Shown: piece after piece, positions 38,778-64,000 of the stretch | Layout: the number at the start of each line of letters is the position of its first letter | Numbering within the stretch: the stretch's first letter is position 1 | Source: Owenia fusiformis | Taxonomy: Eukaryota; Annelida; Polychaeta; Sabellida; Oweniidae | Assembly (NCBI GenBank): GCA_903813345.2 | Contig: CAIIXF020000001.1 | Coordinates: forward strand, 20,787,915 to 20,851,914 | Length of the DNA stretch: 64,000 nt | Reading direction: 5' to 3' | The notes under the pieces: model-generated | The model's input: only the letters and a program-made list of their open reading frames with translations | Told to the model about the DNA's origin: nothing | Database searches by the model: none | Program-made: the position numbers and the translations under genes

Positions 38778-39332
38778 TTATTGGGGGTAGGGCATGTGTC
38801 CTGGGGGCGGTGGGTACGGTGCCCCAGTCGGTGCGTCATACGAAGCTGCAGCAGCCACCCCCTCGAAGCCTATGCCTATAGGAGGCCCGGGTATGGCAGC
38901 CGCTCCATCGAAACCGACAGATGGCCCTGCTCCAAACTGTGGAGCCGAAGGGCCTGCTCCCAGTTGCTGATCCGGTGGGAGTGTGCTGGCTATGGCTTCC
39001 ATCCATGCATTCAAGTCATTGATGTGTTCACATAGGATCCAGTGAATTTTCTTCTTTTTCAACGCCTGCGGTATAGAAATGAGATTGTATACTGAAGCCT
39101 CGGGTGGTAACATCGGTCGATCTGGAAGCGATGTTTTATCACCTACCGCAATGTAATATGCTATGTTTTTCAAAAGAACAGTTCCCTTGTCTTTTGTATC
39201 ACCCGGATTCTTATACCATGTGAGTGTACTGTCCGAGTAAAGTACAAAATAATTTTTCTTCCATTTATCCTCTTTATCTAGGATACTACCCTTTCCATAT
39301 CTAAGAAGATATCCAGTTTTTACCGTTGTCAT
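38778..39332 (-). CDS. PH-domain protein, PLEKHB/evectin-like, with Gly/Pro/Ala-rich tail
   Basis: Single coding exon, 184 residues. Start chosen at 39332 (MTTVKTGYLLRYG); an in-frame ATG 33 nt upstream lies before a likely acceptor (CTTGTAG at 39349-39355), so a 5' UTR intron is likely. Residues about 4-105 form a PH domain: VKTGYLLRYG, WKKNYFVLYSDSTLTWYKN and, at the end, W in NDLNAWMEAI. The start VKxGxLLR and strand WYKN recall evectins (PLEKHB1/2), which bind phosphatidylserine or phosphoinositides at recycling or Golgi membranes. The last 70 residues are Gly/Pro/Ala-rich (GAGPSAPQFGAGPS, YPPPPGHMPYPQ). Evectins usually end in a hydrophobic anchor, which is absent here, so the family assignment below PH is tentative. 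The stop TAA overlaps an AATAAA; a second AATAAA lies at 38632-38637. Confidence 0.82.
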   Translation of the reverse strand: MTTVKTGYLLRYGKGSILDKEDKWKKNYFVLYSDSTLTWYKNPGDTKDKGTVLLKNIAYYIAVGDKTSLPDRPMLPPEASVYNLISIPQALKKKKIHWILCEHINDLNAWMEAIASTLPPDQQLGAGPSAPQFGAGPSVGFDGAAAIPGPPIGIGFEGVAAAASYDAPTGAPYPPPPGHMPYPQ

Positions 39333-42104: not shown

Positions 42105-43145
42105 AAAACAAGATGGCGGCCCAAAAGTTAATCAGCTCTAGTACTTGATATCCTCTATCATTTGTGTAAATTTGAAGGAAATCCGATGAGCGGTTTTCCT
42201 GAAATGGCGATGACAAGATTTTTCGAAAAACCTTCAAAATGGCCACCCAAAAGTTAATCAGCTCTAGGTATGAGGTTCCATATCTAGTCCCTATATAGTC
42301 CATTTAAAAACTCGTGGTATTGTCCTAAATAACGCCAAAGTTGGCTTCTAGGGTACCTAGTATGCCACTATTTGGTATCAAAATAAAGAGGAGGAGTTCA
42401 ACTTTCATGTGAATTACGAAAATAGCGATGTAGGTCAAAAATAGTTCCGACGTGAGGTTGTTTACTACGCGTTTGCCTGTCATATCAGAATTGAGGAAGT
42501 GGTAGCAAACGCGAGTCACAATAAATGGACGCTGATATCTCAAAAAGTAACCGGACTCCCTATAATTTGATGTAGATCAATCGAACCCCTATATGAACAG
42601 GTACATTTTGATATATAACACTATGGGGGGTAAGCGTTTTATAGTTGGTCACGAACGCCATATGTGCAAAGTATTGTTATGAATTTTCGAATTTGGTGTT
42701 GGATTACGGTACTCATACCTCTAGTACTTGATATCCTCTATCATGTGTGTAAATTTGAAGGAAATCCGATGAGCGGATTTTCTGAAATGGCGATGACAAG
42801 ATTTTTCGAAAAATCTTCAAAATGGCTGCCAGAAAACAAGATGGCCGCCCAAAAGTTAATCAGCTCTAGTACTTGATATCCTCTATCGTTTGTGTAAATT
42901 TGAAGAAAATCCAATCAGCGGTTTTCCTGAAATGGCGATGACAAGATTTTTCGAAAAACCTTCAAAATGGACGCCAGAAAAGAAGATGGCCACCCAAAAG
43001 TTAATCAGCCCTAGTACTTCATATGCTCTATCAACTCTGCGAATTTGGAGAAAATCTGATGAGCAGTTTTCCTTAAACGGCGATGACAATAAGCGGGACG
43101 ATCACGATCACGACCAGTATGACGACTATATCCCACCGATGGTGT
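42105..43145. mobile_element. Non-autonomous element with about 130-bp tandem repeats, interrupted by a nested insertion
   Basis: Four to five copies of a unit containing AAAAGTTAATCAGCTCTAG, GATATCCTCTATCATTTG, GAAATGGCGATGACAAG and TTTTTCGAAAAACC. The right end has CCCACCGATGGTGTG. One copy is split by the element at 42268-42718. Short ORFs on both strands are by-products of the repeat. Confidence 0.75.
42268..42718. mobile_element. Nested 451-bp insertion with CTCTAG target-site duplication
   Basis: Begins GTATGAGG and ends CTCATAC, a 7-bp inverted repeat, and is flanked by CTCTAG on both sides (42262-42267 and 42719-42724). The uninterrupted neighbouring copies of the host repeat read CTCTAGTACTTG, so they show the empty site. 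Non-coding. Confidence 0.8.
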
Positions 43146-43937: not shown

Positions 43938-46315
43938 TCATTTCTCATCGGAAACCTCCTCATCGGGTTTAAGTTTTTTAGGACAATTCTCATCTTCAAG
44001 TTCACGAGTACAAGATGGACGTTTGACAGTGGGTGCAGAGAGTTTGTTAAAAACAACGATGATACATGTCATGTTGTCACAGCCTGTTCCATCTCCCATT
44101 GTGTCTGGCGCAAGGCACCTATCAAATATCTGTAACCAAAGCAAACGAATTATTAATCACTTAAAATTTCACTATCAAAATCACATTTCAAAATAATGCT
44201 GTCTGTGATACAATACCTGGAAACCTGTATAAAACTTTGCCATAGCAAATGGGCTGATTTGATTTTACACCAAAGGGTATTTCACCCAATACAATATAAA
44301 CCTGAATGTTCAAAAATATTACACCAACAATTAAGGGGCTGATCTCCTCCCCCCATGATCTCGGAAATGAATAATCATACAAGGGTGTATTAGGTATCAT
44401 TGGAAAGGATAATCAATTCCCAGTATTTTGAGCCTACTTCTAAGTATATTGAGCCATAATTGATGAAGAAATTCACATTCTAAGAACATATCGGTTTATC
44501 ATTGCAAGTCAAAATGTTTAAGGATTAAATGATTCATCAATACATTTGTTCTTACCTCTTCACATATAATGGAGGGAGTTTTGCGTTTCTTCTCATCTTG
44601 CAGTCGTTGTTTGACAAAATCAACAACTTCTTGACTAGTTAGACAGTTCCTGGAATATAATAACACTTAAATAATATTTGTATATATTTAATCACTGACA
44701 TGTAGAAAACACTCATTTCAGTGGAGTTCTGAAAAGCAAAATACATGTAAACATATTACTGTATTCTAAAGCAAGTAAGTAGTCTAGTTTGAGATCATGA
44801 TGGGACAATGGCAAGATATAGTAGAAGTCTGTATTATATGATCATAGTACATCTCATAATAACAATGTTCAACTTTTGAATGAATTTTTAATTTTCAAAG
44901 GATGAGAAATGAATTCCAACATTTCAATTCATTTCAATGGATATGGTAAATATATCATAATTTCATTTGTAGTACAATGTACATGTAATATGGTGTGCAT
45001 GAAAGTACTTTATTTATAAGAAACTACTCAATATTGTTCTTATACTTAGTTTGTATATCATTTGACCGATGAAATACACCCTGGTAAAATGGATCAGTTT
45101 CTTGAGCCATTAAGTAGATGAGTATACATGTATTATAGATTACCCTACGAGCTTGAGCATGTTTTGAAAGGTGACTTCACTTTTGAAGATGTTTTTGAAG
45201 GTAGGGCACAACAAAGTTGTCTTATAATTGGCATCTGTTGTCTTCAATAATGATTTGCACATTTTAATAAGTTGGGATACAATAATTGTGTCCCAAATTA
45301 ATAAAATATCAAATATATGGATATAGTGTCTAAAAAGAAATATATGATCATAGTATAACTATTACATGTATATCAAACAACAGCCTACCATATTCCATCA
45401 CATGCCAGCACCAAGAATTCATCTCCTTCCTCTAGTTTGGTGGATTTCACATCAGGAAGTGCAGTGATCATTTGATCCTTTAGAGCTATGTCTTTGGTAG
45501 TCTTGTAAGCATGGTCACCTGAAGTATTATAAGTAGAATACACTTAGAGTGAAACCAATGCATCTATCATTTCTATGGTAGATCTCAGAATAAAGTTACA
45601 ATTCATTTTAAATCAACAGGAAGTACTGCATATCAATGTAACTACAGTGATCTCCCCAGGATTTTTACTCAAGTGGGTGCAAAATTCTCATTTTCACAAT
45701 TCAGACCAAAATTGGTCAAAATATTGGTCAAATATTTCATGATTTTCTTATATTTAAGTAGGTGCAAATGGATTTTCAGGTGGATGCAAGGCTGTTTTCA
45801 AAATCTCAGGAGGGTGCTGCGCCCACTTGCTTTAATGCTGGGGAGACCACTGAACTAGATAGCAGAAACTAAAATGTTATACATTCCAACAAACAACACT
45901 ATTTTCTCTATTTTCAAGCACTGATGGACTTAATTTATATGTTTTATGATATACTCGTATTATTTAATAGATTTATTCTAATAAAAAAAGAAACCTTTAA
46001 CGATGAATGGACCCCTTGGACTTGGTGAGGTTTTCACTAAAAGAGGGTTTTCTGTACATGGGCAATTTATACATACATACCTATAGCTCTTGAGAGGTTC
46101 AGATTTCCATTGACCCTCCCATCAGGAGTCACTTCTCCCCCTGCCGCGTGAATTCGTTTCAACTCAATCTCATCTTCGGGTTTATGATCAAATGACATCT
46201 CCATGGCAACACCATTGCGACTCAGGACACACCGAGAATCACCAGCATTTGCAACATAAAGCTCATTGTCTTTGATGAGAGCTAACACTGCTGTACAACC
46301 ACTGTCACTGCCAGG
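43938..46315 (-). CDS. PPM1G: PPM1G C-terminal catalytic half (four exons)
   Basis: Exons 46081-46315, 45389-45518, 44556-44649 and 43938-44129. In order: [98 protein letters not shown] and [16 protein letters not shown]. Aspartates in GDSR, ACDG and CDN are the expected metal ligands. The C-terminus is short and charged, ending [15 protein letters not shown], with a Lys cluster that could serve as a nuclear localisation signal as in vertebrate PPM1G. Confidence 0.95.
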
Positions 46316-49300
46316 CTGAAATTCAGCAGATGAACAATCATGAGTCAGATATCATTGCCATCTGGGGTCCTCGGAGTCAAAATATGCTTCTCCCTTTGTT
46401 AAACCAATTGACTCCATCTAATTCGTTTATAACATGGCAATATTTCTGTTGGTACAAGGAAATACTGTTTCATAATGGAACACTTAGATCTTATTTAAAA
46501 TTGGCTTCAGATATGAGTCATAAAAGATAGATCTGTTCACCTCTTCACTTGCACATTCTGTTTCTTCTAGCTCATCATCATCATCCTCATCTTCGTCCTC
46601 CTTGTCTTCAGCCCCATCTTCTTCCTCATCCTCTTCATCACTGTTAAGTTCAACAATTCATTCTTGATGTAACATTTATTTATTTTTATATAGCTAAGCA
46701 AGCATTGCTACCATTGACCAATCAAAAGCAGTATAACTATGTATGGCTTGAATATTAACACCTAATTTTGTAATTCGCTTGCAAATGTGACGAGGCAAAA
46801 TATTACCAATTTTTTAAATAAAAAATGCTCTAATTGACATTTTTGCAATAGATAGACATCATTTACAGTTGGTTCAGAATTGATCAACAATATTGAACAT
46901 ATCAGCCTATTTATTAGCTTCTTAAAGCAATTCCATGATCCAAAAGTGAAGGTCAGACCGTGACCTGTCGCATTGAAAGGTGAATGGTCAAACTTCATGA
47001 TCCTCTCTTATAAAGGTTTAACATATATGTGTTCTTCGAAGGAAGCTCATAGATTGTGACTATGATATTTTCAAAGACCTATTAATTATAATTTACCTTT
47101 CTTCCTCCTCTTGCCCTTCTACATATTCATCATCACTGTCTTCTTCAGAATCTTCATCTGCTATATCATCTATTGACTTGAAGGTTGTCCCTGCCAATGC
47201 AATATTGGATCCAGATCCACCACTCTGAAACATTTACAGATACATCCATTTTATGTCTTCGTCTATTTTCATCTTGTGGATAAGTCGATCTTATTGATGA
47301 AAACTAATCTATGAAGGCTCAGACCACCTCCCCTATGTTTGTTAAATCTCGTCAATTAATGTTTCAAGTTATCTATAACGATATGGTATTCTACCAATAC
47401 ATAATAAATAGTTTCTAAATGCTGCGTTTATTGCTATGCTATGTTCAAGAGGAGGAAATACCCCCATGTTAAGTTCATCTATGATTTCTGGGCTATTCTC
47501 CCTCTTTTCAGTATCTGTACTTACTGAACTTCCACTTGAGGTACTGCTTGGTTTTGTTTCATTCTTTTCAGATGGTTTTTCACCTGCCTTAGATTCTGCT
47601 ACGGTATCTGGTGTTACATCTTCTGTCTTTTCTGATGATGTGTTTACAGTGTCTGTTTCACTATTTATAGTTTCAGATTTTTCTATAGTGTCTTTCTTAT
47701 CTGAAGTGTCCATATTATTTTTCAAAATATCCATTTGTTTAAATCTTTCTGCTTTAATTTCTGCCTCAGTTTTTGTTTCTTCTTCAGCTGTGCCATCAGC
47801 ACATTCTTTTTCTTTATTATCTGAAGTGTCCATATTTTTTTCTTCACCGTCTTTGACATTCAATGTAGTGTCATTACTTGCACCTTTTTTCAAATCCTCT
47901 TTCATTTGTTTAATCATTTGTTCAGCACTTTCTCTTTTAATTTCAGCCTCAGTTTTTGTTTCCTCTTTAACTGTGCCATCAGCACGTTCTTTTTCAATAT
48001 TTTGGTTGTTTTCATTATCAGCGTGTCCATTTGCCAACTGGGCATCAAGGTTGATTTTGATTTCATCACCATTTCCATTTACTGAATTTCCATTTACTGA
48101 ATTCCCATTAGAAGTACATTTCTTTGATTTTTTGCCTACACCTTTCTTGCCTTTCAACATGGGAGATAACACATCTGGTTTTTCTTTGATAGCATCAACC
48201 TTTGACGGAGGGCCATCGGTCCCATATTTGGCAAGTAAATCTTCTATAGGCATTGTTGCTTCCTCAACCAGCTCAGCAGCTTCTTCTCGTTCCTCTGAAA
48301 CAGTAAAACAATGTAAAAATCCATTTCCAAACATGTGAGCTAATAACAACATATAAAAAATATATTTCCATTTTAAGATGTGTAAGCTTTGAAGAAACTT
48401 TGCACTGCACTCGATTAAAATAACAAAATGAAAAAGTGGGAAATGAACTGAAAGAACAATGCATCAAGTTAAAAAACTGGTAAATCATAATTGCTATTTA
48501 TACAGACATGGTAATCATATAATAAAGTTAAGATATTTTGGGGGACACATATAAAGTTAAGTTGCTCTTATATGCATCAAGTATTGAAGAACATCGAAAG
48601 GATTGTCCTATTAAGTAATTATTAATACATGTAGTTTATTGACCTCAGGGTAATATTTTACAATTATTTCCTATAAACTTACCATCTGCATCACCATCAT
48701 CATCTAACTGTGCAATCTGTTTAAGTTCATGCACAACCTCCTCCCGTGTTAGTGTCTCGTCAAACTTCAGGAAAGCATCCTCCAAGGCTTGTGAGATATT
48801 GCCTTCTTTATATGATTGGAGTTCCTTGAGGAAGTCTGGCAAATGTGATGAACAGTACTGCGCAACTTCACTTCCTAAAAATATAAGTCATTAGTGCTTA
48901 GCACATAAGGTCACTAAGAGACAAAACTGAAACTTTTGTAACCAAAATAAAATAGATGATTTGACACACAGATTTATAATATGCAACTTTGTACATCCAT
49001 TATGGGATTTCATAGGGAACAATTTTGATATACATGTATGTTTAGAGATAAAAATTAATTTAAAAGTCATGATTTTGGAACATACATTATGTGGCTATTT
49101 AGTATTTAGTCTTGAACAGGTTGTTGCATTTAGGCTTGTCACTTTTGTAAATGTGTTGTGTATAATTTTTTTTTTCAAATGTAGATAATGTATGTTATTT
49201 TTGGGGGAAGGGGTGCAGGTACATGCCCCCTTGGAAATTATTTCGAAGATGCTGTTTGATTCAATCTGAGGGGTTCCAGTTAGACATTACTTTTGAACTT

Positions 49301-52300
49301 TGAGAGTAACTCCCATTGTAGATCTACAGTTTCTACTGTTACTTAAGAATGTATCTTCTCATTCTCACCTTTTAAATGTTTTATGTTAACACAAATGATC
49401 AGAAGAAGAGAGTAGCTCCCATTATACTATCATATTCTTTCGTATTCGTAACCATCCCATATGGTCATACAAACCGTATATGGATCTAGCACATGGGTAC
49501 CACGTGATCGACTACGAAGGCTGAACTTTGGGAAATCTCCTCCTGACAAATGATTATACAGTTCACACTATTCTCTTTTCTTACTATTTTCTAATTTAAA
49601 TTCTTATACCAAAAAAATTATTATCATACCAAAGTTGAATTGTTTTTGAGGGAATATTTTATTTTCTCTTTGTAGTCACACTCATTAGGGTTTATCTACT
49701 TATCACACCGGAATAGCCTGACAGCAGTAAAGTCAGATACCGTTGTCACAAATGGTGGACATAACCGTCGCTTCAATTAGATTTTTCATGAACTGTATGT
49801 TTAGTAGAGCATCTAGACTAAATTCCTTTGGAACGACAATCACTCAAAGTGTCTTTTAAACTCATTGTACACTTAATACTCCTATTCGCGATAAGAGTTC
49901 AGGTGCTAATTTACATAAATATCTCCCATGATGCATCGCTTTGGAAGGGACAAATTTTCATTGGCCCGCCGAACGAGTCGATTACTCTGAACGTTTCTCA
50001 GCTTCTGATCTTCCATCAGCCCTCAAGCATAGTTATATAATCCAATCTATTCAATAATCAGAAAGATAATCGGAGATTCAAAGTGACATTATTTATATTT
50101 TTTCTATCTTCGATGGCGTCTGAGCAATTTCTTGGATATCAGTGACGTCACTTGAATTGGACGGCATTTTCAACTACAGATTTCTTCGGATTTGGGGATA
50201 ATAGTTCAAAAAGCTTTGTCATATATCTTAATTGCATACATACCTATCGTTTGTGCAAATGAAACTCTACATAAATGTTTAATAGAGTCGCAGTGCGGCA
50301 TCGAAAATAGCACCCCTGTGTAATCCAATGGGAAAGAACCCGGATGTAGACGAAGTTGTACCATACATGAGAGCTCTTCAAACGGGAAGTAGCTAAACTG
50401 AACGAAATTAAACGTTATCGCGTATTGGTATATTATATTACCATGCTACCATCGAAATAAAGTCTATAACAACCGTTAAAAGGAGATTCTGAAAAATCAG
50501 AATGATTAACTCCATGTACAACCAAAACAAGCATCACTGTACCTCCATGTCCATCGTAAACAGCAAACAGAGATGTCTTTCTTTCAGGGTCAAAGGTCAT
50601 GCAAGCATTGTGGGCATCCTGAAAATAAACAGAAAACTAATTTTGGCCATGTACATGTACTTGTCAAATTCTTGGGTTTATACTGTAGTCTTGCTTCAAG
50701 ACCCTGGACACCCCACTTATCTACTTTACAACAGGGTCTTGAAATGACAGAGGTTCTCTCACTGATGTTAATTATTTATGCAAGATGCATCATTGAATTC
50801 AAGGTATTATAACATACCTTGGATTCAAAAACTTATTTTTGTCTCCTGTTGGTATGTGTTGTGTTATGCCACTGATAATCACCATGGAACCAATCAAGTG
50901 TCTACATATTTGTTTGCCAGCAATCACAGTTTATAAATTCTCATTTTATGGTCCTTAATGGGCTCACCTGTTTTCAATCACACTGGTATCAGTGGACCTT
51001 TATCTTTCAACAAACAAACCATCTGACTGGTGGTTGCATGGTTTGTGTACAATCAGATAATTTGTTTGTTTTATCTATGATCTCATTGGTTCCATTCTAT
51101 TTAGATTCATTTTGAACCATAGTTATTGGATTTTAAAGGCCTACTAATGAGGTTGACAGTTCAGCCTCTATTTACCTAACACATAAGAATTAGCATAATG
51201 TAGGGTTAAAAAGATGACTTCATCTAAATACTCTTCTTGCAGCAAGAATGTCTCTGACAAAATAATAGGATTTATGGCAGGGATTTCAGCCACAGATTCC
51301 AGAGGTATGAATACTCTATACCTTGATGATCCAAGATGGGGTGTCTATTGAAAGATCCTTTGAATTGATGTTTATCTTAAATATCATTACAAGGTTTTGT
51401 GACATATATCTTTGCTTTGAATTTTTGCAACATAGCTTGCCACCTGTTGAAGATGTAGAATTGTACGCTTCAAACTCAGCTATTTACTCGCCTATTCTCA
51501 AAAAATGATGGACAAACAGCAGTATTCTCTGCTTGTTTTGAACAGATACAAACAAAGTAAAACCATGCCCATTTCAGCATTTTTGTCTTAATTATTAGGC
51601 GATCAGATTTGAAGGGGAATCCATTTCATTGTACGATAAGATACCATGATGAAAACATCATCAGAGAGGGCCATTCTCTCATTGGCTTTTAATTATGCAG
51701 GCTACCTATTTTAAAGTCTACCTGAATAACCTGATCTGTAAGATAGTATAGGTCGCTTATAGTCAGAGCAATAAATAAATGGATAGTCGATTTCCATCAC
51801 CACTTCCAAACCATGGTGATCTGAAAGCTATATACAATTGTCATTCATGTACAACATGTACAATATGAATATACTTTTCTTTACATTATTGCACAATGGT
51901 CTCCTATATCTTGGGGTTTTACTGACGCAATAAAACAGTGAAATGGGCTGTATCTAGTTTTTAACATGGGCTAACATGGGAAATGTTCACTTCAGCAATT
52001 CCACTACTCATTTTAATATTTATGGCTCTAAGACTGTGGATAATCGAAACAGCTGAAACTGAATTACTGAATTCAGCTGCTTACTTTCAGCTTCATATCT
52101 GCAAATGTTTCCTACATCTCCATATACCGTTTGTCTGAAAGTTATCAGCTGCTTCTGTGTGGATCATGACTTGTTTTTTCCCTGAACAATGTACATTTTC
52201 TTCGAGAAATCATATAGCGGTTTTGACATAAAATTTATAAAGTAGCATCTGGAAATCAGAGATTTCAAACGCAACTTCGTAAGTGACAGTTTCACCTATT

Positions 52301-52686
52301 ACTATTCTCTAGCGGCCCACAGGGTACGAGCAATGGCTATGGTACATGTAAAGGTCGATTATGAAAATGTCTGACAAAAACTCATACAGATAAAGGTTTC
52401 ATCATGTACAGGATGCAAACTGCAGAGAATCACAGTGAGCTACTTACATTGTTCATATGGTTTATCTCAGAGAGAAAAACAAACTACACCTGAGGCTAAA
52501 CCATATGAAGTAAAAATAGCTCAGTGCACAGAATTCTCAGAGGAAAGAAACAATGAAGAATGAATGAAAAATTACCTCTTGAGCTATTCGCCATCCCTGC
52601 ATCGAGGAAGCGCCATAGGACATAGTCTCGCCCTCGTAGTCGTCAGACACCTTCTCAACATTTGGAACAGACAGGTAGGCACCCAT
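43938..52686 (-). CDS. PPM1G: Protein phosphatase 1G (PP2C gamma)
   Basis: Metal-dependent Ser/Thr phosphatase of the PP2C family; PPM1G is nuclear and acts on splicing factors, histone H2A-H2B and chromatin regulators. Ten coding exons, in transcript order: 52576-52686, 50543-50618, 48683-48874, 47462-48294, 47097-47224, 46541-46640, 46081-46315, 45389-45518, 44556-44649, 43938-44129. They sum to 2,091 nt (696 residues) with all phases closing; the human protein is 546. The start MGAYLSVPN has Gly2 as for N-myristoylation, and the N-terminus matches human MGAYLSQPN. Metal-site motifs are present: QEDAHN, VYDGHGG, ANAGDSR, FDHKP, ACDGIWN and [10 protein letters not shown] long charged insert splits the catalytic domain, which is the hallmark of PPM1G. 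The gene is head to head with the unit starting at 53748. Confidence 0.95.
45645..45852. mobile_element. MITE with CAGTGATCTCCCCAG ends and AACTA target-site duplication
   Basis: The left end CAGTGATCTCCCCAG and right end CTGGGGAGACCACTG are inverted (one mismatch). AACTA flanks both sides (45640-45644 and 45853-45857). It is 208 bp, non-coding, inside a PPM1G intron. Confidence 0.88.
46541..48294 (-). CDS. PPM1G: PPM1G acidic/Lys-rich insert (three exons)
   Basis: Exons 47462-48294, 47097-47224 and 46541-46640. The insert opens with [20 protein letters not shown] and [10 protein letters not shown], which match human PPM1G, then continues with a Lys/Glu/Ser/Thr-rich region and ends in acidic runs ([23 protein letters not shown]). 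The 833-nt exon has an internal duplication: [16 protein letters not shown] and [16 protein letters not shown], each followed by a Met/Lys stretch, and [16 protein letters not shown]. It also has a [12 protein letters not shown] tandem. This insert accounts for the extra length over the human protein. The donor is GTATTT at 47461 on the minus strand, chosen because it is the only phase 0 site that fits the next exon. Confidence 0.88.
48683..52686 (-). CDS. PPM1G: PPM1G N-terminal catalytic half (three exons)
   Basis: Exons 52576-52686, 50543-50618 and 48683-48874. The translation gives [77 protein letters not shown] and [12 protein letters not shown]. The human equivalent of QEDAHN is MEDAHN. 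DGHGG binds the metal pair. Exon phases (0, 1, 1) close with the next exon. Confidence 0.94.
48875..50542. other. PPM1G intron with a promoter-like patch
   Basis: The left part is AT-rich without features. About 49,700-50,420 is richer in CpG and holds a perfect TGACGTCA palindrome at 50143-50150 (see findings). No coding signal seen. Confidence 0.5.
50619..52575. other. PPM1G first intron, no recognisable feature
   Basis: AT-rich; I see no repeat family or exon-like block. Confidence 0.5.
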
Positions 52687-53747
52687 CTTTCAAAATCTCA
52701 TGCAATGAAATCAGTAAAGTGTGATGAAAACAGAGGAAAATCAAACACGTGTGACTTTGGCGGTATAAATTTTTTATCACGTGACCAAATATAAAAATCA
52801 TTGATTGATAGAAGAGCGACAAACAATTCTAAATTTATAATAAAATCTAGAGTTTCTATTGATGCAATTTAAATTGAAAAACTTATAAAATTATTAAGTA
52901 TTCAACGAATAGGTATATGCCCATGTTTGTTACTTCGTCATTGCGCAAAACAATTATTTGATATTAAGAGATCTCCAAGGGAGTGAAAATAACAGCAATA
53001 TGTTGAAAATGTAAAGACATACGAAATCACTATATTATTCACTGACAATGGGTTTTCAGCATATACCAAAAAATTTATTTTCGTCTTTTATTTGTTTTAT
53101 AGTTTAATTAAATCAATAAAATATATTCATTTGTCAAACTTTAGATTTTATAGATTTATTTCGATTAGCAGAAAGTTTGTCATTTCAACACTATTTTTAT
53201 TTCTCTTCATATTTTCATAATTTTCTAAAGTTTTATCATTTATATGCGATAATGAACAAGCTTAATACAAGTTATGGATACCGGAACAACAAAAGGTACA
53301 TCTGTTACTCGAGTCTCTAGCCAATACTTGGCTAGAGGGGATTTCATCTGAATACTGTGAACTCTATTTGAAAAAAGTATGCCGGGGTGTCATAAATTTA
53401 TTGAATATTTTAAAAATCGCCAGATAAATAAATCATTAATCAAACCGGACCCAGCTCAAATCCTTGATGAGATATGACATGATTTCATCAGGATTTCGTC
53501 TAAAATTAAAACAAAATGGCTCCAAGAAAAATGGCGATGTTCGAAAACTGGACGAAATGTCGTTAACGTCTGACATTAGTAACCGGCTGTAAATTCTAAG
53601 TTAGCGATTCAGAAGATGTGAACTAATACACTGATCACTTTATGTGTGTTTTGGGATTTTTGGTGAGGTAATAAGACCAAAACTCGCAATTCAAATTGTG
53701 ATGTGGAAAAATGGCGGACATATGATTTCAAATTTTATGATTACGAC
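52687..53747. promoter_or_regulatory. Divergent promoter region between PPM1G and the dicistronic unit
   Basis: About 1.06 kb between the two start codons. Two CACGTG E-boxes (52746-52751 and 52778-52783) lie 60-97 nt upstream of the PPM1G ATG; the second reads TCACGTGACC, close to the palindromic USF/MITF-type site. On the other side AAAATGGCGG at 53708-53717 matches a YY1-type initiator element 31-40 nt upstream of the ATG at 53748. No TATA box is obvious. Confidence 0.5.
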
Positions 53748-55810
53748 ATGACCAGTTGTACATGCAGGAATATACCTGTACTGGAAGGCCACGATACAGT
53801 GGCCTTAGAAGAAGGTAATACATCTGAAGTTTATTGTTCACTTGAAATTTATTCCTATGACTTTTAGTAAATTATTCATCCTGTAAATTATTTTAAAGTA
53901 ATAACTCAATTATCGCCCACTAAAAATGTAATGGGGGCCAAAAAATATAGATTGAATTCTAAGATCTAATTTTTTATTTCCGAAACTAGTTCATATGGTT
54001 AAAATAAGGAAATTTTGTGATGTAACCACGTGTCTACTTACCAGTATGTTCTACGTCATCTATCAGACTATGTTATATTGTGAAACTCAGCTAAACACGA
54101 CACTGAATGCAACAACATATCGATATTGATCTTAGCAGAAATTGTTGAAATTCAGATCGTCCATTTTGCCAGTCACTTGTCTGATCATGTGTCTAGTTAC
54201 TAGTTGATATAATGTGACTTGTGATGTGTCACTCAACCATGTCTTCAAAGAAAGATATTAATTTATTAGATTTAGAAAATGGTTTTCGGACATCTAGGGG
54301 AAGTGGTCCTAATTATCGCTCGGTCCTAATTATCGCACGATTGTCCTAAATAGCTAAAATATACACCCACCATCTTTTAAACCAGTGTTACGAAAAACAG
54401 TTCAACACCATTACTCCCAATCTTCATGATTTATTCATATATTTAGAAATATCTCTTCATTTTTTGAGAATTGTTTACTTCCACTATTATCATGTATGCT
54501 ATTGCGCAAAAAGTGAAATTCGTCTGACAAAGTTTGACCCTCCTCCAAATAAAGACAGAAAAGTTATTGTATAATGGATATTTTGTTGATATTTTACACT
54601 AAAACTGATTGAAAAATGATTATAGCATATGTATGTATCTGTTATAAACAGAGAAATGTATACAGTATCGTGAAATGATATCTGAAACACAACTATGCGA
54701 TAATTAGGACGACTGCGCGATAATTAGGACCACCACACATGCGAGTCCAAGGGGTCTTAAAGTGTTAGCGTTCGGAGATTGAGAAATGTCAAACACTACT
54801 TAAATTTTAGAAGAAAGGTTGATCTTTCATCTCATATTCTCAAAGTAAGTTGAAGTTATCATATTTGAAATCGTCAGTAGTTTTCCAGAGTACCCGTGCG
54901 GTGATAAGACCATTTCCCCTACTGCTGAATACAGAAGAAAATATTCCAAGATAGCGATGTCAAATATTATAAGAAGGGCTGCTGAAGCTACTGACTATTT
55001 AAAATCAACTTTATTCAAGATATTACGTTCGCTACTTTGTTCAATTCCGGAAATCTCCAAGGTGCTACAAATAGGAAATTATTTCGATTTATATTTTATA
55101 ACCTCAGAATACTGCCTTCAGTGTCGTGTTTAACTGAGTTTTACAATGTAACATAGTCCGATAGATGACATAGAACATACTGGTAAGTATATACATGGTT
55201 ACATCACAACATTTCTTTATTCCAACCATATGAACTGGTTTCCGAAATAAAAATTAGACCGTTATGCCAGCCATTACCACCATAGGCCAAGGGAAAGTAG
55301 TATTAATGAAGATCTTCCATGTTGAGGTTGTACTACTTTCCTTTAGCCTATGGCCATTACAGGCCCATCTTTGGATAATGTTGATATTGCAATTCCATGA
55401 TGTAGGCATCCAAATGTCCCAAAATTTATGTATTTGTCATGCATTTGCTGTTGATATTGAATGATAAAAAATGAACACTGAAAATGAGTGCCGAAAAAAA
55501 TGAACGCAGTTCTTTTCGGAATTTTCATGTGAATTGCGCATTATATCATGCATTTGCTTTGAATATTCTTGTTACCCCCTTTATATACCTCCTATAATTT
55601 ATCTTATTTCCAGATGTAGGACCTGGTAAACGGAAAGCTGATGATGTTGAAGTTGAAAAGTCAGTACCAACCACAGAGACAAAAGCTAACAAACGTGTTG
55701 TACAGGATGGTTACTCGTGGTGGACATGTATGATGTATGATATGCCCATGGAGAAAACAAAACCACACAGTGTACCTAAGACTAATCAACAGAACGGAAA
55801 TAAAGACTAG
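53748..55810 (+). CDS. 87-residue ORF of unknown function, first cistron of a probable dicistronic unit
   Basis: Exons 53748-53814 and 55614-55810 (phase 1 junction, GTAATA donor, TTTCCAG acceptor). The protein starts MTSCTCRNIPVLEGHD and ends in a charged, Asn/Lys-rich tail. A basic patch (GPGKRKADDVEVEK) could be a nuclear localisation signal, and the most distinctive segment is GYSWWTCMMYDMP, an aromatic/Met cluster. No signal peptide, transmembrane segment or known domain. I do not recognise it. The stop TAG lies 14 nt before the ATG of the CYB5RL ORF in the same exon. Splicing in phase, open frame across the intron and compositional coherence favour a real protein over a chance ORF. Confidence 0.62.
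53964..55260. mobile_element. 1.3-kb foldback element with about 150-bp arms
   Basis: The left arm (about 53,964-54,113) and right arm (about 55,111-55,260) are reverse complements with scattered mismatches: TTTCCGAAACTAGTTCATAT against ATATGAACTGGTTTCCGAAA, and ACTTACCAGTATGTTCTA against AGAACATACTGGTAAGT. The centre holds the MITE at 54297-54919. No ORF of note. Confidence 0.8.
54297..54919. mobile_element. TA-flanked MITE nested in the foldback element
   Basis: The left end GGGGAAGTGGTCCTAATTAT and right end GATAAGACCATTTCCCC are inverted, TA abuts both (54295-54296 and 54920-54921), and subterminal GTCCTAATTATCGC blocks recur in both orientations (54,305-54,345; 54,697-54,735). TA target and repeated subterminal motifs fit a Tc1/mariner-type non-autonomous element. 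Confidence 0.8.
55268..55362. mobile_element. Short hairpin element
   Basis: CCATAGGCCAAGGGAAAGTAGTA is matched in inverse by TACTACTTTCCTTTAGCCTATGG about 45 bp later, written here only as position and core: both cores contain GGGAAAGTAGTA or its inverse. A compact foldback of about 95 bp, immediately beyond the right arm of the larger inverted repeat. Confidence 0.7.
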
Positions 55811-55824
55811 ATATACAAAGTTAT

Positions 55825-56157
55825 ATGGAGTTTGAAAGTAAAATAAGTGTCAAAGAAGAGGAATTAGGTTCCCAAAATGTCCTGTGGGTACCATCTTCAG
55901 TTATTACTAGTATTGCAGCACAATCATCAAATGTTGATACATCTGATGATTTAAAGTGTGAAACTACAAATCAAAATATTGTGAATAATGTTGTGGATTA
56001 TGACTTACCAGATCCCCCTGAAGAGCCTCTACAGTCAGACTGCTGTGGAACTGGTTGTTCCCCTTGTGTTTTTGACATTTATGATCAGGACATGAAACTC
56101 TGGGAAAAACAGTGCCAAAGGATTAAATCAGGAGAAAAAACTGCTTGCTTCAAAAAT
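55825..56157 (+). CDS. CYB5RL: CYB5RL exon 1 with oxidoreductase-like N-terminal domain
   Basis: 111 codons, phase 0 end. About 60 residues of Ser/Val/Asn-rich lead precede LPDPPEEPLQSDCCGTGC and VFDIYDQDMKLWEK, the small Cys-rich domain found at the N-terminus of CYB5RL and in OXLD1. No signal peptide or membrane anchor is apparent, unlike classical CYB5R3 or CYB5R1. Confidence 0.9.
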
Positions 56158-57410
56158 GTAAGTTCAATTTAAATACTGTGCAAACATGAAATCAGTTATT
56201 TTTTCCATCATTGTAAGTGCACCCACCTGAAACCCATTTGGTCTCCTTCCTCATTGAAAAGTGTGAAAAATATACAAGTAACAAGAAACAGAATTGTGAA
56301 GAGAATTTAGCACATAAATTCTGAGAAGACGTAAATTATACCTTTTCATTGCAACAATCTCTCTGCACAGTGTTTACAAGTAGTTGTGGTGGAACTCACC
56401 AAACTATTTACAAAAATGGCACCATTTCAATAACAAAATGGGCCAAAGGTACGACCATCAAGTTTTCATTAAAATCATCAATATAATTCCTCACTTTTGT
56501 TATGTAAACAGAACATTAAAAACAGGAAACATCTGCACTTTTAATTGTTCAGTTAACAAAACAATATTGAGGATCTGTTTTGGTTATTCTAAGATTGTGA
56601 AGATTCTACCTGCAACTCTTGAAATCATGGAATCTGAGAATGCTCCATTTTGTTAATAAAACTGATTCGTTTTCACAACCAGAATTCCATCACATCACGG
56701 TGCTTTAGAATTTGAACATTGTTAAGCACCTGTTGAAAATTCATTTGCACATACATGTACCTAATAGTATTGGGTTGTGATATTTTGACATTTTTTGATA
56801 TTTTCTATTTGGTTCACTAATGCACATGATTGAGGTAACAACTATTGGATTATACTGCCATGTATGCTACACATGTCTTCACATACACAATAGATTTAGG
56901 ATTCTATTTCCAGACTCATCCAGTTATTTCTACCTCAACGTATACTCCATTTACAATAGAAAGTATCCACCGAGAAAGTCATGATTCATTCATATACAGA
57001 TTCCCACTTCCTCAGAATACATCTCTTGGACTTACTGTTGGACAGCACATTATACTCAGGTAAGGAGAGTCATCCTTTTTCAGCAAATTGAAATTAGAAA
57101 ATGATCAAATCAAAATTGTATATGGGTTATGGGATGCTTTTTAAAGGAATATTCCTTTCAAGGTACTATCGCTTGTCACTCATCTGTTCAATCACATATG
57201 ATAATGACATTTCATAAAAAGTTGACTGCTTTTTTCAATGAATGAATGAAATTCTTTGTTTCTAGCAAAACTGTACCACACTCCTTGGGGTCAGGCCCGT
57301 AAGACACTTTTTTCCAAGGGGGGTGCGGTTTTAACTAAAGAGAAAATAAAGTTGTCAATTTTTTGCCCCGTAAATCAAATTGCGGAAGTCAAAGGGGGGG
57401 GGGGGGTCAG

Positions 57411-57445
<35 letters not shown>

Positions 57446-60400
57446 GAGTTACTCCCTATATTGGGGCCACTCAGCTTATTTTGTAGTATCTTACAGTATT
57501 GTTTTCATATTGTTTTTAGACTAAATATTGTATGAGCAATTTGGAGAAACGCTGTAATATGGGGAGGGTGTACTCCAAGGGCATAAATCCCGAGAACTTT
57601 TACCAGTTCAAGATCACATTCAGTGATTTCTGGACCCTTTCAAGGTATTTTAATTGAAATAGAATCTATTTATAAGAAATTCAGATTTTTCAATCATTTT
57701 CTTCTTAGGGGAGCGAGGGGGCAGCAAGGAATTCAAGATGCTCTCTGGTTAATTCTGAGCACTTTTAATGTGTTTGAGTAAAAAAAAATACTTTAGTTTT
57801 TGGGGTGCGCTGCCAGAAATTTTTATGATTTCATAATGTCACTTGTTGACTTCTAGGCACTTTTAATGTGTTTAAAATTAACAAATGCAACTTCCAAACT
57901 TGTGAGGAGTGACCCACTCCCCCTAGAAAATTTTACACTTTTGAGATCTTATTTGGTGCTTTCTGGGCAATTTTAACGTGAATGAGTCGATAAAAAAATG
58001 TGAATTTTTCTTCAAACTCTTTTTGGGGGTATCAAAGAGAATGAGAGGGTGAAGTGGGATGGAGTGCCAGAGGGGGAGCAAAGGTTTGTCCCCAAGAAAC
58101 ATTGACCATATCAAGGTGCCATTTGATGATGTCTGGGCACTTTAAAAATGTCTGAGATAATACATGAAATTCAGAATTTTCTCTATTGTTTGGTAGGAGA
58201 TGTGAGGGGTGGCCAACTCTTCTAGGAAATTTTACAATTTTAAGATGATATTTGGTGCTTTTGGGCACCCTTTAAGTGTATGACTCAATCAATAAAAAAC
58301 AATTACATTTTTTCAATTTTGGGGGGTTGTTAAAGGGGGGAGCCAGAGGGGGAGGTGGGATTAGGGTGCTAGAGGGGGAGCAAGTGTTTGTCCCCCATAT
58401 CTGCCCCCCAGAAACATTGACCATATCAAGGTGCCATTTGATGATGTCTGGGCACTTTAAAAGTGTCTGAGACAATGCATGAAATAAATTCAGAATTTTT
58501 GTCAATTGTTTTGTGGGGGATGTGAGGGGTGGCCTACTTCCCTGGAAAATTTTACAATTTTAAGATGTTATTTGATGCTTTCTGGGCACTTTCGAAGTGA
58601 ATGACTCAATAAAAAATATGAAAAAATCACAATATTTTGGGGGATGTTAAGGGGGAAGGGGGAGGTGGGGTGGGGATGCAAGAGGGCGAGTTAGTGTTAG
58701 TCTCCCAGAATCATTGACTATATCAAGGAGCTATTTGATGATGTCTGGGCACTTTACATGTGTCTGAGATGATACATAAAATAAATTCTAAACTTTTCAA
58801 TTGTTTTGTTTTGGGTGTGAGGGATGGCCCACTCCCCCTAGAAAATTTTACAATTTTAAAACGCTATTTAGTGCTCTCTTGGCGCTTTCAAAGTGTATGA
58901 GTCAATCACAATTTTTTTCAATTTTTTTGGAGGGGTGTCAAGGGGGGCGGGGTGCCAGAGGGGGAGGTGGGGAGGGGTGGGGATCCCGAGGGGGAGCAAG
59001 TGTTAGTCCCCCAGAACCGTTTACTATATCAAGGAGCTATGTGATGATGTCTTGGCACTTGGGCACTTTAAAAGTGTCTGAGACAATACATAAAATAAAT
59101 TCAGAACTTTTCCATTGCATTGAGGGGGTTGTGAGGGATGGCCTACTCCCTCTAGGAAATTTTACAATTTTAAGATGCTATTTGGTGCTTTCTGGGCACT
59201 TTAAAAGTGTATGAGACGATGAAAAAAAATTACCCAAAAAAATATTTTTCAAAAAAAAAATTAAAAATTTTTTTAAAAATTTTTTGGGGGGTGTCAAAGG
59301 GGGGTGCGGTCGCACCCATCGCACCCCCCCATCTGACGGCCCTGGGGTGTATTTCACTCCCTTCAGTTTGGAGAAAAGTAATTCATTCATATGTATGTAC
59401 TGTGTTTATCTCAGCAGTAAATATGAACCATTTGCTTCATCCATGTCTTCAATGTTGTCTTGTCTTCAGGGGCCAGGTGAATGGCAGATATATCACAAGA
59501 CAGTACACACCTATAAGTGACCTCAAGGCCTTAGGCTACTTTGATATTCTAATCAAGGTACAACATAAAATTGTGTTTCAAGAGTATATATTAAACTTCA
59601 CAAATGCCTCAAATAAAGATACATTTAAAAGATGTCACTAGGGTAAATTATTCAATGGACTCTGTACTGCACCCTTGGTCCAAGGGTATAGCGTGTCAGC
59701 CATTTGAAATAACTAAATGGATCAAGATGATAATTGAACATATTGCTCTCCAATTGTTTTGTTGATGGCGTTCAATATTCGGTATCTGTAACAAATGGCA
59801 GGTGGTGACATTTTGCAGTTTCAGTTATAGCTGTTCAAATATGATACTGTCTTTTACATTCTTAGCTAGGTTACATTTTCCAATTCTTATTTTTTAGGTT
59901 TATCCTAAGGGTGAGATGTCCCAATATGTTAAAACCTGGAGAGTGGGGGACATATTGGAATGGAGGGGTCCATATGGGACATTTACATACAAGTCTAATA
60001 CAGTAAGTGGATGTACTAAACAAGTAGTTTTTGGCCTTACACAGTGAGCCTATGGGATTGACCAGGTGTCCGTTCGTTGGTCCCTCTGTTGGCCTGTCCG
60101 TCCATCCGTCCATCCGTCCGTCACATATTTATTTCATCTGTCTATCTGTATTGTATTGTATTTTATGTATATGTATTTGTTTTATTTACTGCCGCACTGG
60201 AGTTTTCCATTGTGCCACTGATTAAAAGGTGTTTGGCAAATAAATAAATAAAATAAAAATTGGCCGCACAAATTAAAACTGCTATTCCGATTGAGTCATA
60301 TCCACATTCATTTTATGCATATCCATTATGCCTATTTGACCTATCATCGCCATTTCCCAAGTTCGCCCGGTTTCCGAGAAATTGCTGATTTTGACGTAAA

Positions 60401-62969
60401 AAAAAGTAAAAATAAGTTATTTTTCAACTTGCTTCAATTTGACCAAATCGTCTACAAGTTGCCAGGAGTTCAAGTCTGACCTTAGTTTTGAGATTTGACC
60501 TTCAGTCACCTTCTAAAGGTCAAAAAAGTTGATTTTTCTAATTGATTATTTGGATGTAAATTTTGGTCACCTTAATCACAAAAGACCTACTGAGCTCTGA
60601 ATAAGTAAAATGTTCAAGGTCAAAGGTCCTCAAACTAGGTCACAAACTGTGCTATCTAAGTTTCTCAAAGTTCGAGACTACAAATCAAAATCAATAATTT
60701 TGTTTGAAAATCAGAATATACATTCCTCTGAAGGTTCTACACTGTGTGAGCAAAGGACCGTGGGTCCTTCATTGTTATGTCACCACAGTCTCCAACCTTT
60801 TTCTGGACGGTGGTTGGTGTTTGGAGTTTGGTGGTCGGTGTTCAAATTTCTGTGTTTGCCATCTGTAACAAATGGCAGGTGGTGAAATTTTGCATGTTCA
60901 TGCCTTGTTACTGCTTGGAGTATTTACCATTACATTAGATCTCAGAGAAAAGTCCTTTTTAGAATGTTTTTTTATGGCGTAATATATGACCAAAAGTTTT
61001 ATTCTGTTCATTGTTAAAAGACAGAAATCGTGTACTGATTGAGGTCTTTGGCAATAGCCCGAATAAAATTTGAAGGCATATATTTGACATAAATCATTAA
61101 ATCGAGGTGTTTGTTTTACGATTCTAATATGATAAACAGACGAGATACACAACGATTTGCATTTATGAATTTTAGCGGTCATACATACTCCATATATACT
61201 CCAATATAGACCAGTAAATCAAATTCATAAATGCAAATAGTTGTGTTACATGTCTGTTTATCATATAATATAATATTATAATATTAGAATCATAACAAAG
61301 ACCACAATTTTATGACTTATGTCAAATATATGACCTCAAATTTTATTCTGGCCATTGCCAAAGACCTCAATCGCTACGCCATTATTCTGTGCAAATTTCA
61401 TGAGGATTGGGTAAAATCTGAAGAAATGCCAGATACTTTTACCTTATTTATTGATCACCCTGTATTACGCCATAAATCATAAAACCTTGGTCTTTATTCC
61501 TTAAATAACTCAACACATTGTACAACCAAAAGTGTGTGACACATTCTTGGTGAATATTGGTGGTAGTATTCAAATATTCTTGAAAGCAGATCAATTTGTA
61601 GACTTGTTTGTTAATGATAAACTTTAAACCTTCCCTGGGGCCTTGTTTATCACACACAAAAAGGTGTTATGCATGATTAACATTTAACATCCTCTTTCAC
61701 TACTGTTGTACTGGGTTATAGGTGGATGTTTGCTCTGGCGGGATAAAAACATTGTGACCATGTTTCAAACAGTTAAGAGACTCATTTTAATTCTCAGGGC
61801 TGCCTCATGTTGTGCCAAACCTTGACCAAATTATTTTTATTACAGTATCGCCATCTATTGTTAGTAGCTGCAGGCACAGGCATTGCTCCAATGGTACAAG
61901 TTATACAAGACATACTTGAGAATGAAGAAGATGAAACATTTATTCGACTGGTTTTCTCTGTAAAGACCTACCAAGATATTATATTGAAGGATCTACTAAA
62001 GAAATGGCAGTGTTACTGGAATTTCACTGTTACTTATGTTATAAGCCAGGTAATCGATAAAACAAATAGCAGAATTGACTGAAAAGGGAATCAACCCCCT
62101 TATTCTATGCGTACCATAGTGGAGGGTGGACTTTCTTTTCAGCACAGTTTTATTATCTGTTCCTGTGGCTTTGGTCAAGAGGTAAACCAAAACACTATGT
62201 CAGTGAAAACATGATCAAAGTATGCAATGAGGGAGGGGATTAGAGTCTGGAACATTTGGTGAAGCCTATCAGATTTATTATTATGCCTGTATGTCTAGCG
62301 ATGATTCCTTCATTCATTTGCAAAACACCTTAGATTGTTTGTTATTTTACACATTTTGAGGAATTTAATTGAACCAATAATTTCATAAAGTGCTCCCTTT
62401 TAGCTTTATAATGTTCCTTGGTTGATTTGCCTGGCATAGAAGGTTGTTTTTTACATTAAACTTAAAACAAACAGTTTCATTTAATTAGATCCAAATTAAG
62501 TTAGTTAAGTTATTTAAGATACTAACTTGCTGTATGTCAATAACAGGACAAAAATAACAATGGTTTCACAATTTATAGTCTTGCTTCAAGCTCCCCCCCC
62601 CCCTCCTGCACACCCCACTATGCAAGTCTAGCGATGAGGTAGATAAAGAGGGGGAGGGCTAAGAGACTTGGGGCAAGGCTAAATTTGAGACATTGTATTA
62701 ATCAACTAAAACATTTATGATATGCAATAACAATTACATTCTTATTTTAATTTTTCTTAATTTTCTCCATTTAGGATCCTACATGTATTGGGAAATATGG
62801 AGAAGATATCCACATTGGCAGAATTACTGAGGACTTTCTCGTGGCAGAGTTAGATAAATGTGTGGGATCAAAACTCATATTGATATGTGGTACCAAGTCA
62901 TTTGATAAAGATATTGTGAATTATGTCCGTAGATATGGTATACAAAAAGACAATTATTTTAGATTTTAA
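55825..62969 (+). CDS. CYB5RL: NADH-cytochrome b5 reductase-like protein (CYB5RL type), second cistron
   Basis: Flavoprotein of the ferredoxin-NADP reductase superfamily that would pass electrons from NADH through FAD to a one-electron acceptor. Exons 55825-56157, 56914-57059, 59470-59557, 59898-60002, 61846-62049 and 62775-62969; 1,071 nt, 356 residues, phases close; human CYB5RL is about 315. N-terminal oxidoreductase-like motif DLPDPPEEP, DCCGTGCSPCVFDIYDQD; FAD motif RQYTPIS; GEMSQY (the GxMS motif that contacts FAD); GPYG; NAD motif AAGTGIAPM; C-terminal YFRF. The CGP motif usual near the C-terminus reads ICGT. An in-frame stop (TAA at 55801) precedes the ATG, so translation must start at or after 55825, in the same exon as the first cistron's stop. 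Confidence 0.9.
56158..56913. other. CYB5RL intron 1, no recognisable feature
   Basis: AT-rich; a 90-codon open frame at 56384-56656 has no coding character that I recognise. Confidence 0.5.
56914..60002 (+). CDS. CYB5RL: CYB5RL FAD-binding half (three exons)
   Basis: Exons 56914-57059, 59470-59557 and 59898-60002. The translation gives YTPFTIESIHRESHDSFIYR, LGLTVGQHIILR, GRYITRQYTPIS, YFDILIK, VYPKGEMSQYVKTWRVGD and EWRGPYGTFTY. These are the beta-barrel landmarks of cytochrome b5 reductases in correct order. The 2.4-kb intron between the first two exons is filled by a repeat element. Confidence 0.92.
57292..59344. mobile_element. 2-kb element with five about 300-bp G-rich tandem repeats
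   Basis: The left end CAGGCCCGTAAGACAC and right end GACGGCCCTG are inverted and resemble the CAGGCCCGTAGCCAG family seen in agrin. Five internal units begin near 57899, 58198, 58518, 58816 and 59130 (each at TGTGAGG(A/G)(A/G)TGGCC or close) and share AAATTTTACAATTTTAAGA, TTTCTGGGCACTTT and AGGGGGAGCAAGTGTT. No transposase. The right end contains GGGGTGCGGTCGCACCC, a short palindrome. Confidence 0.75.
57394..57444. repeat. Long G tract (13 G, short gap, 33 G)
   Basis: Runs of 13 G (57394-57406) and 33 G (57412-57444), separated by TCAGC, near the left end of the element. A homopolymer this long is prone to slippage and can fold as a G-quadruplex; its exact length in the assembly is uncertain. 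Confidence 0.85.
60044..60258 (+). mobile_element. SINE- or LINE-end-like repeat with A-rich tail
   Basis: Contains a GTCCGTCCATCCGTCC microsatellite-like section, a unique middle, and a 3' tail of AAATAAATAAATAAAATAAA, the structure of a retroposed element. No promoter boxes identified with confidence. Confidence 0.5.
61025..61375. repeat. Inverted repeat (foldback), arms about 140 bp
   Basis: The left arm contains GATTGAGGTCTTTGGCAAT and TGCATTTATGAATTT; the right arm contains their inverses (ATTGCCAAAGACCTCAATC, AATTCATAAATGCA). The loop is about 40 bp with an ATATACTCCA repeat. Non-coding. Confidence 0.8.
61846..62969 (+). CDS. CYB5RL: CYB5RL NAD-binding half (two exons)
   Basis: Exons 61846-62049 and 62775-62969. 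The translation gives YRHLLLVAAGTGIAPM, the nucleotide-binding GTGIAP loop, FIRLVFSVKTYQDIILKD, then IHIGRITEDFL, LILICGTKSFDKDI and the C-terminal YFRF. In most cytochrome b5 reductases the C-terminal motif is CGP; here Pro is Thr. Stop TAA at 62967. No clear AATAAA follows within the window; ATTAAA variants occur near 63127 and 63451. Confidence 0.92.
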
Positions 62970-64000
62970 CATGCTGACTCTGCTTTACCCTGAGTGTCAC
63001 ACTTTTGCATATAAGATGAAGCACTCATCACCTTTGAACTACCCAGAGTGACAAGATTTCTCGTCACCTTAGAAATGACAAAGAAGGAAAATCAAACTTT
63101 TTAATAGAGTACAAGCTTGTTTATTATGTTTTATGCTGTGATTAAATTGAATATGGAGTTCATGTCATTGAATCCCTATGTCATCTTGATCCATAAGGTA
63201 TCAACTGTTCCTACCTCTTTGATAGAACCAGCAGAAAGTGACAATAACTCTGTTAGAAACAATGCCACAACCCGAAGTTTATTTGTAATATATGAATTAA
63301 TTGGATATTTTAGACAAAATCCATGTGTTAATGTGGCAAGGAAACTCAGTCAGTCTGCAGCTTTAGATATTGATACAGATTGAATTAAGCAGTAGTGATG
63401 CTCTTACATGTAATTATCAAAACAATGACTTTTCCTTTATAGTTAAACCATTAAAATAACATTTGAATTAACTTGAGCAATTACCATGTAAAAGTCTGTG
63501 AGTTTGAAAAAATAATGGGAGTAGGTTTAATCTTATCTAGTACCAAGACCATCTCTATGTTTTGAAAACGAGATGGTATTGACACAAGAGAAGTCTTATC
63601 CTTTGTCAAATTCATTATGTGAAATTGATTTCTGACCTGCTCCCCTGTATGATTAGTGTATATGTTGATCATGCCATGCTCACTTACTTATATATGATAA
63701 TAGCCAATGATAATTATCAACCCTTTGATGTACTGCTTTTGTTTCATTGATATATTAGATATATCATGCAATACAATTTATTAAGACATTTTGATTACAT
63801 CTGTGTTCACTTATTTGTTAATTCTGTTTACACTGATTGACCATAGACCCATAGGTGGAGACGCTCTGATCAGTTAGACTATTTGGAGTTTTGACTTACA
63901 TCAGAGTTAGTGACCAGTGCTTTTGCGACATTATTTGAGGTTTATTTCATGTGTTTATAAATTTTCTGGACAATTTGAAATGAATAATTGGCAGAATGAA
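62970..64000. other. Downstream of CYB5RL
   Basis: Likely 3' UTR and intergenic sequence. An 88-codon plus-strand open frame (63117-63383) with no recognisable domain lies here; I cannot support it as a gene. Confidence 0.45.

Follow-up and report, generated by a model that had tools for sequence, protein, structure and literature searches.

A putative two-protein locus in Owenia fusiformis with a small open reading frame 14 nt upstream of CYB5RL

Several reports describe genes that encode two proteins one behind the other. In Drosophila, the small first ORF of sloth1/sloth2 lies 5 nt ahead of the second ORF on one transcript, the first start is weak and the second strong, and reporters support leaky scanning (PMC9681215). 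Bicistronic genes of green algae have short inter-ORF gaps, one of them of 14 nt, and in these pairs, as in stoned and Snapin, the first ORF is AUG-poor and leaky scanning is the route to the second (PMC11892635). GDF1/CERS1, SNRPN/SNURF and RPP14/HsHTD2 are further bicistronic mRNAs (PMC4705651), and at TP53BP1/SEP53BP1 the choice of promoter sets which ORF is translated (PMC10193022). The determinants of reinitiation include uORF length and intercistronic distance, and the DENR-MCT-1 form declines with longer uORFs and is independent of distance (PMC5972666). Annelids are said to lack operons and trans-splicing (PMC7854359), and a 2022 review describes CYB5RL as less studied than any other member of its family (PMC9706631). 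Among the listed literature matches naming CYB5RL, no dicistronic CYB5RL was found in titles or abstract openings, a wider search had nothing on such a CYB5RL pair among the matches listed, and a search for bicistronic genes in Owenia returned no match.

The locus described here lies in a 64,000-nt stretch of the annelid Owenia fusiformis (contig CAIIXF020000001.1), referred to as the window. The original prediction placed the end of an 87-residue ORF and the start of a reductase ORF in one exon, and re-reading the sequence and splicing both frames bore out all of its exon and frame coordinates. The small ORF (ORF1, forward strand) begins in exon 1 at 53748-53814 (ATG at 53748, 22 codons plus 1 nt) and is interrupted by a phase-1 GT-AG intron of 1799 nt at 53815-55613. 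It continues at 55614-55810, where the first two bases complete the split codon and the TAG at 55808-55810 ends the frame; the phase-1 junction of exon 1 with exon 2 (55614-56157) gives the 87 residues. The intron has the donor AAG/GTAATA at 53815 and the acceptor TTATTTCCAG/ATG at 55613/55614, which score 5.84 and 0.24 on splice-site matrices, and both values lie inside the ranges of the five reductase introns (donors 3.6-12.4, acceptors -0.36-5.28). A gap of 14 nt (55811-55824, ATATACAAAGTTAT) separates the ORF1 stop from the reductase ATG at 55825, which is in the same exon and in a different frame. The reductase frame is closed upstream by an in-frame TAA at 55801-55803. This TAA is contained in an AATAAA (55799-55804, forward strand) that runs over the last ORF1 codons and could be an early polyadenylation site, though it may be a chance occurrence because 14 AATAAA are found in 55500-63500.

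The reductase itself is a genuine CYB5RL, as had been proposed. Its six coding exons on the forward strand, at 55825-56157, 56914-57059, 59470-59557, 59898-60002, 61846-62049 and 62775-62969 (the last with the stop codon), join in silico into one open frame of 356 residues. The predicted spliced chain carries the three domains expected of CYB5RL/CYB5R5, in the same order as in that family: Oxidored-like (PF09791, residues 61-101, in the first coding exon), FAD_binding_6 and NAD_binding_1, with scores of 44.2, 95.5 and 57.2 bits that each exceed the curated cut-off. In PDB an NADH-cytochrome b5 reductase matches best (E 2.2e-40), and coding exon 3 contains RQYTPIS, an FAD-binding motif. One further Oxidored-like match lies elsewhere in the genome (C9). 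About 60 residues precede the Oxidored-like domain here, whereas human CYB5RL has only a short stretch N-terminal to that domain. By eye, the second reductase intron has a G-rich stretch at 57390-59320 that looks repeated, and about 33 consecutive G near 57412.

Other genes with this layout are already known, and the present locus adds another. The gap is short as in sloth1/sloth2 (5 nt there, 14 nt here), but the strengths of the starts are reversed, the second being the weak one in O. fusiformis. The green-algal pairs also have short gaps, including one of 14 nt, yet AUGs upstream of ORF2 are depleted in those pairs and undepleted here. SNRPN/SNURF and RPP14/HsHTD2 share the arrangement of two proteins per transcript, though they are reported mRNAs of known genes whereas the present case is known from genome sequence. 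The promoter switch at TP53BP1/SEP53BP1 is like the one proposed below; there, however, the small ORF overlaps the main ORF and a 5-codon uORF drives reinitiation.

Codon statistics suggest that ORF1 is very probably a real coding sequence. The codon model drew on 30 kinase loci in the same genome; four with frames under 200 codons were left out, and the longest open frames of the other 26 supplied 12,731 training codons, some of which may be flanking noncoding sequence. Measured against yardsticks that are the model's own training data rather than held-out sequence, and whose noncoding segments were picked by hand and may contain unrecognised exons, the part of ORF1 in exon 2 reaches 0.22 bits per codon. 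None of 115 noncoding open runs with 45 or more codons scores as high, and among 183 coding pieces the value falls at the 90th percentile. Relative to a null matched for dinucleotide composition the z value is 3.0 (8 of 5000 equally high), on a scale where the 115 noncoding runs peak at 2.4 and 98 coding pieces have a median of 1.7. The coding-versus-intron LLR, with an intron model built from 7,946 bases, is +4.1 bits for ORF1 exon 1, +13.1 bits for early exon 2 and +8.3 bits for the last 27 ORF1 codons (55727-55807), while the first 25 codons of the reductase give just +1.4 bits and the remainder of that exon +7.1 bits. On the same measure 27-codon coding pieces have a median of 6.3 bits (n=236), and stop-free intron pieces have a median of -1.9 and a 90th percentile of 1.1 (n=34).

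The reading we tentatively prefer, at somewhat less than an even chance, is that of two coding sequences in one transcription unit with separate start sites, where the reductase is made mostly from a shorter mRNA. A long mRNA, with ORF1 as its first main ORF, would arise from a promoter located between 53748 and the divergent PP2C gene. ORF1 would function on it as a coding uORF of considerable length, and little reductase would be produced. The main source of CYB5RL protein would be another class of mRNA, with its 5' end either inside intron 1 or inside exon 2 ahead of 55825. This reading is preferred because of the coding signal of ORF1, the frames that stay open up to the gap, the bounding of exon 1 by the PP2C gene, and the load of AUGs ahead of the reductase start.

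A true functional dicistron, in which one mature mRNA yields both proteins and the reductase start is reached by internal entry, reinitiation or residual leaky scanning, is unlikely though it has precedents in sloth1/sloth2, GDF1/CERS1, SNRPN/SNURF, RPP14/HsHTD2 and the green-algal pair with the 14-nt gap. The dicistronic mRNA of the original prediction holds to the extent that two coding-like frames lie 14 nt apart within one exon and that a transcript joining exon 1 to exon 2 would carry both. Co-expression of both proteins from that mRNA gained no support, given the AUG content of ORF1, the context of the second start, the 87-codon first ORF and the short gap. There are 11 AUGs in the 278 nt between the two starts, 6 of them with a purine at -3, and they are not depleted, since synonymous recoding of ORF1 gives a mean of 9.7. 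The seven that are out of frame are likewise undepleted (P(<=7)=0.88 against recoded ORF1). For comparison, coding pieces of this genome have a mean of 6.8 AUGs per 276 nt, and at least 11 occur in 7.6% of 236. The ORF1 AUG has G at -3 and A at +4, and the reductase AUG has T at -3 and G at +4. Up to four more AUGs (53701, 53711, 53722 and 53737) precede the ORF1 start, depending on where transcription begins. Leaky scanning is disfavoured because of the 11 undepleted AUGs and the T at -3 of the reductase AUG. The locus differs from leaky-scanning dicistrons of the AUG-poor type in this AUG content, and from those of the sloth1/2 type in that the -3 base is better at the first start than at the second.

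The AUG load is compatible with reinitiation or internal entry. For reinitiation, an 87-codon ORF followed by a 14-nt gap is unfavourable without being prohibitive. TGGGA is a viral termination-reinitiation motif, and it is absent from 55650-55830. A spliced-leader operon is also unlikely: no acceptor follows ORF1, and the AGs in its stop codon and the gap score no better than -7.7. Altogether, transcription common to both frames is likely, translation of both from a common mRNA is doubtful, and a functional link between the products is unsupported.

The possibility that a cryptic intron within 55614-56157 fuses the two frames, so that a longer reductase begins with ORF1, is distinctly improbable; under it the 87-aa frame would be an intron-retained form at most. 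It had been stated that no splice signal separates the two ORFs. This is accurate for the AGs that lie in the stop codon of ORF1 and in the gap, which are poor and fall outside the best six of 55640-55830, but not for ORF1 itself, where the acceptor-like AG at 55705 (-0.1) matches two real acceptors. That AG is the best in 55640-55830 and lies 120 nt upstream of the reductase ATG, with 7 AUGs following it. The exon also contains GT-AG pairs able to connect the ORF1 frame to the reductase frame. The in-frame pair 55728-55900 (forward strand, 173 nt; donor 4.1, acceptor 2.1) scores 6.2 bits and the pair 55626-55900 scores 7.9 bits, equal to or better than the 6.1 bits of the ORF1 intron. Such an intron would account for the many AUGs in ORF1, the poor start context at 55825 and the low coding score of the 25 codons with which the reductase frame opens, and ordinary genes are far commoner than dicistrons. 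However, among 426 other coding stretches of the same geometry, 28% contain an equally good pair at a threshold of 7.92 and 46% do at 6.08, in a null that has no stop-free-join requirement whereas the candidate pairs had to be stop-free. The supposed intron sequence is itself coding-like (9.7 bits for 55728-55900 and 20.3 bits for 55626-55900). In addition, 55728-55900 is T-poor, with 23% compared to 33% in introns, and is shorter than all five reductase introns (340-2410 nt).

It is rather more improbable that ORF1 arose by chance as an open frame within the CYB5RL 5' leader. The absence of a homologue in the searched libraries would agree with this, and the codon signal has two features in its favour. 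The raw codon score in 75-nt windows is 0.41 at 55613 and 0.36 at 55638 and falls to between 0.09 and -0.01 in windows starting at 55663-55713, and this uneven signal, concentrated in the first hundred bases of exon 2, counts against a coding ORF1. The synonymous-only signal is also weak, at 0.015 bits per codon, where the training mean is 0.037 and the reductase exon gives -0.040. Against chance stand the score beyond every noncoding run, the fitting splice phase, and the rarity of such a frame, a 65-codon open frame at the composition of ORF1 arising in 0.56% of 20,000 simulations. Finally, it is very improbable that a single frame was broken near 55804-55810, whether by an assembly error of one base or by a recent genuine indel: the open frames overlap by a few bases at about 55804-55810 and one indel could fuse them, which would account for the AUG load and the weak second start, but the overlap is about 2 codons, overlaps of at most 2 codons arise in 2.9% of indel-model simulations (stop frequency 0.0725 per codon, a composition estimate) whereas two independent frames give overlaps of 0-2 codons in 13% of simulations, and homopolymers at the site never exceed 3.

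The proposal that the small protein is functionally tied to the reductase or to its acceptor found no backing, as ORF1 has no homologue or domain in the libraries searched. No match to ORF1 was found in Pfam or NCBIfam at E<=10. The lone PDB match, to the PWWP domain of MSH6, covers 19 residues at E 0.23, which was taken as chance and had no Pfam counterpart at E<=10. Within its own genome the 65-residue exon-2 part matched itself alone at E<=0.001, and a 33-residue piece matched itself alone at E<=10. Pattern searches for ORF1 gave 12 matches in viral contigs and 41 in prokaryote genomes, and those for the reductase exon gave 5 and 43; none of either set was confirmed by tblastn, and since these collections are non-animal the ORF1 result is silent on conservation. 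AlphaFold, run on the single sequence of the exon-2 part, gave a mean pLDDT of 63 and a pTM of 0.23, with one predicted helix of low confidence at residues 24-43 of the 65. The basic clusters (KRK...KR) could be a nuclear signal. A stronger reading would make ORF1 a conserved nuclear-type small protein (KRK...KR and the helix around GYSWWTCMMYD) that is obligatorily co-encoded with CYB5RL. The reductase would be translated past 11 AUGs of the same mRNA, either by internal entry or because ribosomes reinitiate efficiently once the 87 codons have been read, and the two proteins would thereby be coupled. We regard that reading as highly doubtful.

The surroundings of exon 1 bear on the separate-start reading. 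A divergent PP2C-type phosphatase, presumably PPM1G, begins its first coding exon on the reverse strand (52590-52686) and bounds the promoter region. Its first 37 predicted residues align with the N-terminus of PP2C structures (best E 5.3e-7 in PDB), and a downstream exon at 46070-46351 matches PP2C in Pfam with 114 bits, while the two short 5' exons alone had no Pfam match. The start codons of this gene and of ORF1 are 1062 bases apart, giving a promoter 5' of exon 1 a space of about 1 kb, and ORF1 exon 1 is a natural first exon because the divergent gene starts at 52686. Just 5' of the ORF1 ATG, at 53708-53717 on the forward strand, lies AAAATGGCGG, a YY1-like motif that also contains the start of a 4-codon uORF (ATG at 53711). 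Five other AANATGGCGG sites in the window (29762, 29909, 30069, 30222 and 42110) make it weak evidence. For 55825 to be the first AUG, transcription must start after 55748, a stretch of about 75 nt before the reductase ATG in which no initiator was recognised by eye. A scan with a bacterial-type promoter model found 3 sites with 2.6 expected and is uninformative for this locus.

Several other features were observed in the window. Most of the ORF1 intron is a transposable element (53971-55253) with 141-nt terminal inverted repeats (89%). Its end has 40 scored genome matches (of 410 candidates), two of which are its own ends. Inner inverted repeats with a GTGGTCCTAATTATCGC core at 54302-54733 suggest a nested element, and a small inverted repeat with 23-nt arms (91% complementary) and a 28-nt spacer lies upstream of exon 2 at 55280-55353. 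The motif AA[AG]ATGGC clusters at 29493-30240 (both strands) and 42110-42983, apparently in repeats. The PP2C-type gene spans 46067-52686 on the reverse strand and includes a long open frame at 47369-48463 that is acidic and repetitive by eye. Exons with EGF and laminin-G domains are found at 31133-34092 (forward strand), and an exon for a PH-domain protein (PF00169, 42.8 bits) at 38781-39380 (reverse strand). A tRNA scan of the window detected none.

Under the separate-start reading this would be a two-protein locus with a putative internal promoter. Should both proteins be made, CYB5RL would gain a candidate partner or regulator in the small one. Should a single mRNA not give rise to both, the locus would still serve as a natural test of promoter switching versus reinitiation, because its layout breaks the rule of AUG depletion seen in known leaky-scanning dicistrons.
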